From Bacillota bacterium (lineage in GTDB: Bacteria > Bacillota_C > Negativicutes > JAEYSJ01), in NCBI GenBank assembly GCA_023434855.1, contig JAEYSJ010000040.1, forward strand, positions 1 through 33,419: a stretch of 33,419 nucleotides of DNA, in the 5' to 3' direction. Below, piece by piece: positions 15,854-27,028 of the stretch; positions within the stretch are counted from its first letter, which is position 1, and every line of letters starts with the position of its first letter. A program made the translations under genes and the position numbers. The notes below the pieces were generated by a model. That model ran no database searches. It saw only the letters and a list, made by a program, of their open reading frames with translations, and was not told where the DNA came from.

Positions 15854-16441
15854 TCACCAAGGAATAATTGATAGAGAAGGCCAGGACTTAATCCATTTGA
15901 GCGCCTTCTTTTCGTAACTTTCCTGTGTGATTTGTGATTTGTTAGGACGGACAATCTGAGAAAACAAATCGTTCAACCCATAAGGAGCGTAAACCAACAA
16001 TTTGGTATTGATAAGCCTTACACCTATTGCTGTGGCTGTTGTCGGCCATGTATTGATACCAGACTCAATTGAGTCGTAAGGAGAGATGCCATAACCAAAA
16101 TGATCTTTATACCAGATATGAACCCGCGCTTGATTCTTAATGTCAATTTTGAGCGGACAGCCAGAAAATTTTCTTTGAATGATTTGAATCATGGTGTTTT
16201 CTGATTCCAACGACAAATCGCGATCGAAATAGACAAAATCGATATCATTTATCCCCATTAGCGGCGGATTGCCATTTTGATAGTTCCAAACAGTTTGAGC
16301 AATACATCCCGCACCAATATAGTAGTAAGGCAGGTTTAAGCTTTCACTTTCTTCAATGATGTGGTAAAGGGGCTTGTTATACCGCAACACCTTGTGCAAT
16401 GCCTCGATTTGTTGTGATAATTGATTATTCTTGCCTATCAT
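15854..16441 (-). CDS. Nucleotidyltransferase-like protein, NTP_transf_6 (DUF925) family
   Basis: 195 residues. Motifs of this minimal nucleotidyltransferase-fold family are visible: YYYIGAGCIAQTVWNYQNG at about 39-57, INDIDFVYFDRDLS at about 64-77 (metal-binding Asp66/Asp68 pair), and a later KIDIKNQARVHIWYKDHFG stretch. The transferred nucleotide and the acceptor are unknown. The start ATG is at 16441. The gene is convergent with the deaminase (74-base gap) and divergent from the MFS leader region. Confidence 0.82.
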   Translation of the reverse strand: MIGKNNQLSQQIEALHKVLRYNKPLYHIIEESESLNLPYYYIGAGCIAQTVWNYQNGNPPLMGINDIDFVYFDRDLSLESENTMIQIIQRKFSGCPLKIDIKNQARVHIWYKDHFGYGISPYDSIESGINTWPTTATAIGVRLINTKLLVYAPYGLNDLFSQIVRPNKSQITQESYEKKALKWIKSWPSLSIIPW

Positions 16442-16676
16442 TGTTTCACTTCCGCTTTTTTTATGTTGTTCTTCAGGGGCGGCGGTTCATACGGCCCATT
16501 CTCGCTAAGGATGATGAATATGATAATACACATTTTCCGCGCAAACCGCGCCAACGGCGATCAGATAGTGCTTTGGAAAACAAGCTACGAAGCTACGCTT
16601 CAAGGAGGAAGTACTGCACCCTCTGTCTGTTACACTCATTATCCCATTTCCAACACAGGATAACAAGTTTTTCATG

Positions 16677-16699
16677 CGGTGTCCTTGTCAAAAACACCG
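16677..16699 (+). other. Hairpin upstream of the leader peptide
   Basis: Perfect 6-bp stem CGGTGT/ACACCG with an 11-base loop, ending 12 bases before the TAGGAGGT site of the leader ORF. It may belong to the attenuator system or be incidental. Confidence 0.4.
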
Positions 16700-16724
16700 T
16701 AAATACATTATAGGAGGTTTTTGT

Positions 16725-16835
16725 ATGTCTAAATACTATAAATCAAAGTTTAATGTTTTAGCAGTCTGTATGATAAAAAGGCTTCCACCACCGCCACCTG
16801 TCAGCGACGTTAATTCTGGGTACAATCCCTTTTAG
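16725..16835 (+). CDS. Short leader-peptide ORF with five consecutive prolines
   Basis: A 36-residue ORF with a near-ideal ribosome site (TAGGAGGT, 6 bases from ATG). The peptide begins MSKYYKSKFNVLAVC, has a basic middle (MIKR), then LPPPPPV at residues 20-26 (proline codons 16785-16799), and ends SGYNPF. Poly-proline is a known ribosome-stalling sequence that depends on EF-P. The ORF sits 78 bases before an MFS efflux gene whose SD is buried in a hairpin, the arrangement of translational attenuators on antibiotic-resistance genes. An alternative is that it is a small secreted or modified peptide exported by the MFS protein; no modification enzyme is nearby, so the leader role is favoured. 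Confidence 0.6.
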   Translation: MSKYYKSKFNVLAVCMIKRLPPPPPVSDVNSGYNPF

Positions 16836-16872
16836 CCGGGAAAAGATTGCCCTGCTTACAATGTCATTGGCG

Positions 16873-16905
16873 TCCTCCTTGGCCGAAAGGGGCAAATAAG
16901 GAGGA
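16873..16905 (+). promoter_or_regulatory. SD-sequestering hairpin in front of the MFS gene
   Basis: TCCTCCTT (16873-16880) pairs perfectly, over 8 bp, with AAGGAGGA (16898-16905), which is the ribosome site of the MFS gene (ATG at 16914). The loop contains GCC/GGC around GAAAGG, extending the structure. A competing pairing, TTGCCC (about 16848-16853) with GGGCAA (about 16890-16895), would cross the hairpin and could open it. CCTCCT is equally complementary to the leader ORF's own AGGAGG. Confidence 0.65.
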
Positions 16906-16913
16906 GTTTACGA

Positions 16914-18089
16914 ATGTCAACTATGTTTTGGGACAAAACTCTTTGGGGCTTACTATTGGCGGTACTGTTAATGATGATTGGAGTAGGCATGATAGTTGCG
17001 GTATTGCCGCAACAAATCGTGTATTTGGATGGAAGCGGACATTCGGTAGGGTATCTGGCTTCGACCTTCGCCTTTGCCTATATTCTACTCCAGGTTCCTG
17101 TAGGCAGATTATCAGATAAATTAGGCTGCAAGCCATTTCTCATCATTGGATATGTACTGTGTTTTTTCGCCGGATTGGAGTATTTCTTTGCAACAAGCTC
17201 TGGCGTAATATTTTTCGCCCGGCTTTTGCAAGGAGCAGGCGAAGTACCGGTTTGGGCGCTAGCCCCAGCGTTGCTGTCAGTAAAGTTTCCAATGCATAAA
17301 GGTAAAGTTATGGGGATATATAATGCCGCTATGCATTTGGGTCTTACTTTAGGACCTATTTTAGGAATAGTATTGGCCCAAATGCTGAACAGGAATGAGG
17401 TATTTCTTGTTTACTCATTTTGCTGTTTAGCTGGCGCGGGTGTGATCACTCTTTTGGTGGAGTCTCCCAGAAAAAAAGAAATAAAGACTACGAGTTCGTT
17501 GGATTTTCAGAACATATTTAAATTGATAGGACAACGGCACACGTTTATTTCTTTGATAGGGATCACTCTATACGGAGCTGGTTACGGAATTTTCCTCACT
17601 ATAATACCTACGTTTTTATTGCAGGAAAAGGCTTTAAGCGCAGTTGGCATCGGCGTTTTCTTCTCATTGTTCTATGTGGCGATAAGCTTTTCGCAGATTA
17701 TTACCGGCCCTTTATCGGACAGATTTGGCCGGAGAATATTTATGATTATCGGACTGTTAATTGCTGCCGGCGGGATAACTATTACCCCGGTCTTAAGCAT
17801 GCCGTTCATCTTATTGGCCCTAACGGTCACAAGTTTGGGGCTGGGTGTTTTTTATCTCGCATCAATGGGTTTTTTGAATGAAATCGTGCCTGCTCATTTA
17901 AAAGGTACGATTTCCGGAGCATATTATTTCTTTTGGGGCATCGGCATGTTTTTCGGTCCCCCGGTAATGACTCAAATTGCAACAAGCATCAGTTTTCAGG
18001 CATCTATGGCTAGCTATGCATTCCTTATTTTGCTTGTAGCAGTTGGGATGATGAATAGACTTAGAAGTAAAGCGGTCATCGATAAATAA
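16914..18089 (+). CDS. MFS efflux transporter (DHA1-like)
   Basis: 391 residues with 12 predicted helices. Motif A reads GRLSDKLGCKPF at about 64-75 and is repeated in the second half as GPLSDRFGRRIF. The antiporter-specific motif C is visible as YNAAMHLGLTLGPILG around 136-151, which points to proton-driven drug or metabolite export rather than uptake. Substrate unknown. The SD (GGAGGAG, 7 bases before ATG) lies inside a stable hairpin and behind a poly-proline leader ORF, so expression is probably controlled at translation by an inhibitor of protein synthesis or by translation stress. A strong terminator closes the unit. Confidence 0.9.
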   Translation: MSTMFWDKTLWGLLLAVLLMMIGVGMIVAVLPQQIVYLDGSGHSVGYLASTFAFAYILLQVPVGRLSDKLGCKPFLIIGYVLCFFAGLEYFFATSSGVIFFARLLQGAGEVPVWALAPALLSVKFPMHKGKVMGIYNAAMHLGLTLGPILGIVLAQMLNRNEVFLVYSFCCLAGAGVITLLVESPRKKEIKTTSSLDFQNIFKLIGQRHTFISLIGITLYGAGYGIFLTIIPTFLLQEKALSAVGIGVFFSLFYVAISFSQIITGPLSDRFGRRIFMIIGLLIAAGGITITPVLSMPFILLALTVTSLGLGVFYLASMGFLNEIVPAHLKGTISGAYYFFWGIGMFFGPPVMTQIATSISFQASMASYAFLILLVAVGMMNRLRSKAVIDK

Positions 18090-18107: not shown

Positions 18108-18147
18108 GGCGGTTATTTCTTAAGGAAATAACCGCCTTATTTTCTTT
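18108..18147 (+). terminator. Rho-independent terminator after the MFS gene
   Basis: Perfect 12-bp stem GGCGGTTATTTC/GAAATAACCGCC with loop TTAAG, followed by the T-rich TTATTTTCTTT. Confidence 0.88.
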
Positions 18148-26688: not shown

Positions 26689-27028
26689 AAACATCGTGAA
26701 ATTGTTTAAACAGCTCCGATATAGAAAGAGTAACCATGTGACCCTTTAGTACAGCGAGTCGGTGACCGGAAGACGGTGGGTGGGATGATCGGCCTAGAGA
26801 GCATGGTGAATGGTTCTATTAGCTGACCACCGAAAGTTTTTGCTGTTTCAAAAAAGCAGCAAAAACTAAGTAGGCTGGGACGGTTGCCACCGTTATTGGG
26901 CTAGAGTATCGGATAACTGGTGTGATTATCCCGTACTTGAAAAGAGATGGGAAACTATTAGTTTCCTGAATTAGGGTGGTAGCGCGAAATCATTTCGCCC
27001 CTGCATAGGGGGAGGAATGATTTTTTGT
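26689..27028 (+). ncRNA. T-box leader with UGG (Trp) specifier
   Basis: Stem I is well formed. TAGA (26722-26725) pairs with TCTA (26815-26818), and ACCATG (26733-26738) pairs with CATGGT (26802-26807). Between them lies the specifier loop: AAGAGTA on the 5' side (the AGTA/loop-E element) and GAA-TGG-T on the 3' side. The specifier triplet at 26811-26813 is therefore UGG, tryptophan. The T-box AGGGTGGTAGCGCG is at 26974-26987 (consensus AGGGTGGNACCGCG, one mismatch). The terminator stem AAATCATT/AATGATTT (26988-26995 with 27016-27023) ends in T's. Uncharged tRNA would stabilise the antiterminator and switch on the downstream deacylase gene. The base after TGG is T, which prefers an A73 discriminator, whereas tRNA-Trp usually has G73; a G-U pair is needed. 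Confidence 0.9.

Follow-up and report, generated by a model that had tools for sequence, protein, structure and literature searches.

In attenuators of the cat type, a single hairpin is opened by a ribosome on its left arm, and in transcription attenuators of the bmrCD, vmlR, and mef/mel type, an intrinsic terminator lies between the leader and the gene. For ermC and ermB, the cited passages describe arrest inside the leader ORF (ErmCL and ErmBL, respectively) and refolding of the mRNA, by which the SD of the resistance gene becomes accessible (PMC13410324, PMC10219788, PMC5118997). ermA has the tandem leaders ermAL1 and ermAL2, and in one model given in the cited part of the source, stalling on the first leader activates translation of the second (PMC8274638). 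For cmlA, the cited part of the source describes an attenuator that controls translation of chloramphenicol export genes (PMC5418344).

Here, we analyzed a 33,419-nucleotide stretch of DNA from a Bacillota bacterium (contig JAEYSJ010000040.1; from here on, the window), in which a leader ORF precedes a gene for an MFS pump (Table 1). Because the leader ORF is conserved, changes in its motif are mostly synonymous, and two mutually exclusive folds are predicted, we consider it probable that the window system is a translational attenuator that controls the pump, with predicted arrest in the leader. An earlier, sequence-only reading had proposed an erm/cat-type translational attenuator ahead of the pump, and it was right in kind but off on two points, the conserved signal and the switching partner.

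Table 1. Coordinates of the leader, the predicted switch elements, and the pump gene in the window
Feature	Position	Strand	Basis or predicted role
Leader SD AGGAGG	16712..16717	+	7 nt 5' of the leader ATG; read from sequence
Leader peptide ORF, 36 codons	16725..16835	+	ATG at 16725, TAG stop at 16833-16835; peptide MSKYYKSKFNVLAVCMIKRLPPPPPVSDVNSGYNPF; same-frame leader in 9 other loci; codon statistics
Putative arrest motif, codons 21-31, PPPPPVSDVNS	16785..16817	+	Peptide alignment, fold model, codon statistics
OFF arm 1, leader codons 26-29	16802..16811	+	Predicted to pair with 16860-16869 when no ribosome covers 16802-16811
ON hairpin 5' arm: last leader codons, stop, following bases	16826..16851	+	Folds; arm test
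OFF arm 2	16860..16869	+	Partner of 16802-16811
ON hairpin 3' arm: anti-SD arm and GAAAGGGG after it	16869..16892	+	Folds; arm test
Anti-SD arm TCCTCCTT	16873..16880	+	OFF: masks the pump SD
Pump SD AAGGAGGA	16898..16905	+	Predicted to be masked in OFF and free in ON
MFS_1 efflux-type transporter, 391 aa	16914..18089	+	Pfam PF07690, 178 bits
Intrinsic-terminator-like hairpin, 13 pairs, T-rich tail	18108..18136	+	Consensus scan only

Direct reading of the sequence bears out the claim of a 36-codon leader with its own SD and five Pro codons (codons 21-25, at 16785-16799); 78 nt separate the leader stop from the pump ATG (16914). By eye, the leaders of relatives are also preceded by SD-like sites. 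By total folding energy, 16677-16920 does not stand out from shuffles (z −1.33; 22 of 200 did as well), and the signal in the window is more than chance because the leader frame, motif, and switch are conserved, not because of folding energy. No Rfam family matches the window leader at the gathering score; the only Rfam match in the window is a T-box (RF00230) at 26707-27005 (+), with 93.8 bits against a cut-off of 93. A promoter scan of the window identified no convincing promoter ahead of the leader. Among the nine loci scanned, seven, including the window, did not outscore shuffles (equaled by 84 to 127 of 200), and one relative (L010 below) has a perfect sigma-70-type promoter 40 nt 5' of the leader (0 of 200 shuffles as good). 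A perfect 6-bp inverted repeat (CGGTGT..ACACCG) is located just 5' of the leader SD, at 16677-16699, and might serve as an operator or form a hairpin at the 5' end of the mRNA. As for the pump, the solved structures related to it are distant, NorA and VMAT among them, and none of the 25 NCBIfam families listed for it reaches its own cut-off. Based on the terminator-like hairpin that follows the pump gene, the unit looks monocistronic.

A genome scan returned five loci, and in four of them the pump has a clear relative (best-segment identity of 60-74%); L001 is from Desulfosporosinus sp. BG, L002 from a Sporomusaceae MAG, L003 from a Pelosinus MAG, and L004 from Sporomusa ovata. More loci were obtained from overlapping groups of 12, 45, 28, 250, and 82 genomes. 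Ahead of all counts, we dropped L005 (remote, 27% identity), L006-L009 (repeats of L001-L004), and L012 and L017 (pump fragments), while the inspection for leaders left out the paralogues L032-L034. The leader is present at 10 loci, window included, of which ~8 are independent. A same-frame leader with the same motif at the nine other loci, together with the conserved switch, agrees with the proposal that the frame and the hairpin are conserved in relatives. The neighboring frames, as judged by eye, vary between loci.

The leader occurs in three layouts. In type A (window, L001, L014, L004, L015, and L016), the order is leader, hairpin, and pump; L015 and L016 are nearly identical, and L001 and L014 are a close pair. 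In type B (L003 and L010), leader 1 and the hairpin are followed by leader 2, whose frame differs from that of the pump and runs over the pump start. Type C (L002 and L029) has the overlapping leader only. In L029, the region at ~1290-1373 of the reverse complement, 5' of the overlapping leader, resembles by eye a decayed first leader module (CAGAAAGATTGTCTG...AACAAGGAGG), and this remnant of module 1 suggests that type C is derived from type B. The pumps of the window (16914-16925), L001 (3001), and L014 start three codons 5' of a second ATG, which aligns with the start codon of the type B and type C pumps; the pump start seems to have moved when the layout changed. In S. ovata (L004, 2939-3471), the leader and the switch are kept, the pump frame stops after 21 codons, and only the C-terminal part follows.

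Pump relatives without a leader are L018 (61%), L030 (64%), L035 (59%), and L031 (54%), and the paralogues L011, L013, and L019 (42-46%) also have none. L031 (genome G486) has a degenerate pump with one TGA and four TAG codons inside the match, and no leader was seen upstream of it. In a midpoint-rooted pump tree with 15 rows, which left out L004 (pump truncated) and L031 (pump degenerate), all nine full-length leader-bearing pumps form one clade with support of 100/99; outside this clade are the leaderless L018, L030, and L035, which are nearest, and three paralogues. The best 120 of 514 protein relatives were listed, and leader status refers to those met as loci. When the motif was used as a DNA pattern, 8 of 398 genomes matched in both of two phylum samples, which are almost identical in the genomes they contain, and each list comprised one known leader and the same seven other places; four of these seven were inspected (L020, L021, L024, and L025), and none is a leader by eye. 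The same pattern in 300 + 82 class genomes matched 20 places, of which 11 are known leaders and 9 are others; none of the six of these nine that we inspected by eye is a leader. Among the inspected pattern matches, the motif is a leader only ahead of this MFS pump family. Plasmids gave no match to the pattern, and a homologue search with the longest in-frame frame (53 aa) found none.

To define the conserved part of the peptide, we aligned 11 leaders (one each from the window, L001, L014, L004, L015, L016, and L002, and two each from L003 and L010). The conserved signal is P[P/Q][P/S]VSxxNS-like: M1 (GTG starts written as M), P23, V26, S27, and S31 are invariant in all 11 peptides, N30 is retained in 9, and the L029 leader, which is outside this alignment, also has PQPVSNINS. 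The idea that the Pro run is the conserved signal did not hold up. PPPPP is found in the window only and PPPP in L001, L014, and L004, while L015, L016, and leader 1 of L003 have PPQS, leader 1 of L010 has PPQP, L002 and L029 have PPPQP, and the second leaders of L010 and L003 have SPQP and LPQP, respectively, without adjacent prolines. Consecutive prolines (PPP) are, therefore, not conserved across the leaders.

These variants bear on the possibility that the leader is a poly-proline sensor, in which a ribosome pause at PPPPP under limiting or unmodified EF-P opens the pump SD by the same attenuator logic. The window has five Pro codons in a row, and L001, L014, and L004 have four; moreover, the cited part of the source describes that consecutive prolines can stall ribosomes (PMC13410324). 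Such a trigger is possible for the window, but it does not fit the relatives with PPQS, and the Pro run is replaced by PPQS or an isolated PQP while V26, S27, and S31 are invariant. We, therefore, regard a poly-proline sensor as unlikely and a shortage of EF-P as a less likely trigger.

In nine pairwise comparisons of codons 21-31, which overlap in the sequences used, dN was lower than dS in eight (dN 0.04-0.30 versus dS 0.43-2.41; e.g., 0.04/0.43 for window-L014, 0.13/0.72 for window-L004, and 0.13/1.34 for L015-L010), and in the ninth, the motif codons are identical. The N-terminal leader codons are less constrained (dN 0.12-0.63), and for the last five leader codons, these statistics are confounded by RNA structure. 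V26 is encoded by GTC in the window and by GTA in the other seven leaders aligned there, and the Pro codons vary at the third base.

Two mutually exclusive predicted RNA folds share the anti-SD arm. In the OFF fold, the 8-bp mask over the pump SD (TCCTCCTT:AAGGAGGA) that had been read from the sequence is recovered in both the MFE and the centroid structure of 16677-16920, and an SD-mask hairpin is predicted in the six type A pumps and for the two second leaders of type B. Without a ribosome, the SD is predicted to be unpaired at 0.02-0.23 in type A and to be fairly open in L010 (0.41) and L003 (0.54). SD occlusion was also tried as a discriminator between leader-bearing and leaderless pumps and failed, with L030 and L031 occluded (0.16-0.26) and L018 and L035 open. 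GUAAGC:GCUUAC-type pairs were found near the position of OFF arm 2 in L004, L015, L016, L010, and L003. In L001 and L014, a GCUUAC located between the pump SD and AUG pairs with the leader GUAAGC in the full-length OFF fold. An own-versus-cross arm test gave no signal for the SD mask (3960/5040 as good) or for OFF arms 1 and 2 (2388/5040).

An alternative pairing of TTGCCC with GGGCAA, which would cross the SD mask, had also been suggested. Both sequences are present in the window (16847-16852 and 16890-16895, respectively), but the pair is not kept beyond close relatives (by eye, roughly kept in L001 and L014 and absent in L015 and L010), and we dropped it as the switching partner. Instead, in the predicted ON hairpin, the anti-SD arm and its loop are paired with a segment that extends from 7 bases before the leader stop to ~18 bases past it. 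The caveat that a masking hairpin so far from the Pro codons needs an intermediate structure was, thus, well placed: the leader end and stop are predicted to pair with the anti-SD arm. The ON hairpin is the MFE structure of the SD-less segment in all eight sequences (−23.5 to −29.3 kcal/mol). When a ribosome is placed at S27, five sequences (L004, L015, L016, L010, and L003) have this hairpin as their MFE structure, and three (the window, L001, and L014) do not. Double changes that keep pairing are found at six or more positions (−5, −4, −1, +2, +4, and +5 from the stop; e.g., +4 is C-G in seven sequences and G-C in L003, and +2 is G-C in seven and A-U in L004), with the pairs taken from each sequence's own fold, which leans this count toward structure. 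In an alignment-free arm test on seven sequences, with L016 left out as a near-copy and kinship not controlled, the true assignment of 5' to 3' arms was within the best 10 of 5040. RNAalifold on a MAFFT alignment missed the ON hairpin and gave a different, weak structure of 11 pairs (−3.89 kcal/mol); one-base register shifts between groups may be the cause.

To relate these folds to the position of the ribosome, we modeled SD opening by folding only the RNA downstream of the ribosome; the SD considered was that of the pump or, in type B, that of leader 2. SD opening was greater with the P-site on codons 21-29 than on codons 32-stop in all eight sequences, and this held for 3' footprint edges of +13, +15, +17, and +19. 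Mean SD opening for these two ranges was 0.10/0.02 in the window, 0.33/0.14 in L001, 0.50/0.14 in L014, 0.56/0.17 in L004, 0.28/0.17 in L015 and L016, 0.44/0.27 in L010, and 0.58/0.32 in L003. As a control, the region running from the motif to the anti-SD arm was dinucleotide-shuffled 100 times; the difference was equaled or exceeded in 5/100 shuffles for the window, 5/100 for L015/L016, and none for the others, and the summed difference over six distinct sequences, i.e., without the near-copies L001 and L016, was reached by 0/100. The peak of opening fell within codons 21-29 or equivalent in four sequences (the window, L001, L004, and L003) and just 5' of the motif, at codons 18-19, in the other four (L014, L015, L016, and L010). 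The fold model alone would also allow stalling at codons 18-20 in some relatives.

Two limits can be set on the predicted stall. Because the ON hairpin starts 7 nt before the stop and the 3' edge of the ribosome is ~16 nt past the first base of the P-site codon, the P-site must be at codon 29 or earlier. Coverage of OFF arm 1, which is within codons 26-29, requires a ribosome at about codon 21 or further along. From the folds and standard ribosome footprints, we infer that the stall interval corresponds to PPPPPVSDV, i.e., the motif would sit where the switch needs the stall. In the window, modeled SD opening is 0.03-0.04 on the Pro codons and reaches 0.22-0.23 only at S27-V29 (codons 27-29), which also argues against the poly-proline sensor. 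Mean predicted opening in the window is small (0.10 versus 0.02), and a ribosome at S27 does not remove the SD mask from the MFE structure, so that the switch there has to rely on co-transcriptional folding.

Next in plausibility, the leader could act by coupling only, with no arrest and with leader ribosomes melting the SD hairpin in passing. The end of the leader is close enough to the pump ATG for coupling effects. However, a ribosome at codons 32-stop is predicted to leave the SD mostly masked (means 0.02-0.32), opening is predicted to be larger at the motif, and coupling does not require a specific peptide motif with dN < dS; we, therefore, consider this explanation improbable. A starvation attenuator for proline or another amino acid, of the kind used by biosynthetic operons and here controlling a pump for a related metabolite, would account for a run of Pro codons in a short leader but is very improbable, given that the motif Pro codons vary from 2 to 5 among leaders and that the terminator-like hairpin after the pump and the differing neighboring frames indicate that no biosynthetic gene is linked. 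That the ORF is incidental and only the RNA is conserved is hardly credible: although the ON hairpin includes the last leader codons and the motif codons of the overlapping leaders are paired, so that some codon conservation is RNA conservation, synonymous change prevails in the motif (V26 as GTC or GTA and the third bases of the Pro codons), and the motif recurs in the second leaders within a different RNA context. The likelihoods of these alternatives overlap, because the poly-proline and starvation alternatives share the switch of the main reading; that of the poly-proline sensor also overlaps with the likelihood of the main reading. Transcription attenuation was rejected, as no U-run follows the SD hairpin and there is no terminator-like site on the + strand at 16400-17437.

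For the preferred reading of a translational attenuator with leader arrest, we propose the following mechanism. In the uninduced state, ribosomes would run along the leader to the stop and cover the 5' arm of the ON hairpin; the anti-SD arm would then pair with the pump SD, and pump translation would be off. Under inducing conditions, a ribosome would stall with its P-site at about codons 21-29, cover OFF arm 1, and leave the leader end free, and the leader end and stop would pair with the anti-SD arm and loop to expose the pump SD. The trigger would most probably be a ribosome-binding drug that is exported by the pump and acts together with the nascent PxPVSxxNS chain. A ribosome-targeting antibiotic exported by the pump is the likeliest trigger by analogy, because known attenuators ahead of exporters work in this way (cmlA).

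In the loci with an overlapping leader (L010, L003, L029, and L002), 52-55 nt separate the motif Val codon from the pump ATG further 3'. The leader sequence CC(C/U)GUAAGCA is predicted to pair with UGCUUC(G/A)GG at the pump start, with a probability of 0.77-1.00 for AAGCA:UGCUU, and CCCG/CGGG is changed to CCUG/CAGG in L029. In three of these loci (L010, L003, and L002), the predicted partner of the pump SD is the Asn-Ser codons (AACUCC), and the L029 SD pairs elsewhere. Thus, the motif codons of the overlapping leaders are predicted to mask the pump AUG in four loci and the SD in three of the four. With a ribosome on the motif, opening of the SD and start codon is uneven across the four loci. 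Compared with mononucleotide shuffles, these hairpins have more favorable folds (z −2.6 to −3.7). The cross-arm test on the four sequences did not reach significance, as 6 of the 24 possible assignments, counting the true one, paired equally well. Taking the layouts together, we see an even case for the proposal that PxPVSxxNS represents a new ribosome arrest motif that depends on a ligand, responds to a single class of ribosome-binding compounds, and is wired in three ways ahead of one pump family, i.e., in an erm-like multi-state switch, in a two-leader cascade, and in an overlapping leader, the arrest codons of which mask the pump start codon and, in most, the SD.

To our knowledge, there is no known match to the V-S-x-x-N-S part of the motif. 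Among the literature matches listed, which are from open-licence papers only and make this a weak comparison, titles and abstract openings do not describe the leader, and no drug-sensing attenuator for Desulfosporosinus-, Sporomusa-, or Pelosinus-type genera was found among the matches listed. The design seems to be of a known kind and the peptide signal and trigger to be undescribed. In relatives of Desulfosporosinus, Sporomusa, and Pelosinus, the locus, thus, adds an apparently undescribed family of leader peptides for which a definite stall zone is predicted. The arresting compound, if found, would point to the natural substrate of the pump and to a new context rule for ribosome inhibitors, and three wirings within one pump clade open the evolution of attenuators to study.

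Compared with the described systems, the leader peptides of cmlA and cat are short and unrelated in sequence to the window leader, and unlike in the bmrCD, vmlR, and mef/mel systems, there is no intrinsic terminator between the window leader and the pump. The Pro-containing putative arrest motif resembles poly-Pro/EF-P and SecM-like arrest peptides as far as these are described in the cited passages (PMC13410324) and differs from them in that PPP is not conserved and no link to protein secretion was seen. With ermC and ermB, as described in the passages cited above, the window shares the logic of a leader ORF and a rearrangement that exposes an SD, which is predicted here; peptide and RNA sequences differ, and the controlled gene encodes an MFS pump rather than an rRNA methylase. 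The two-leader layout of L003 and L010, with the same motif in both leaders, resembles ermA as portrayed in the cited part of its source; a difference from ermA is that leader 2 and the pump gene overlap in different frames, with predicted pairing between the motif codons of leader 2 and the pump AUG and SD. Finally, the overlapping-leader type in L002 and L029 is similar to the cat attenuator.
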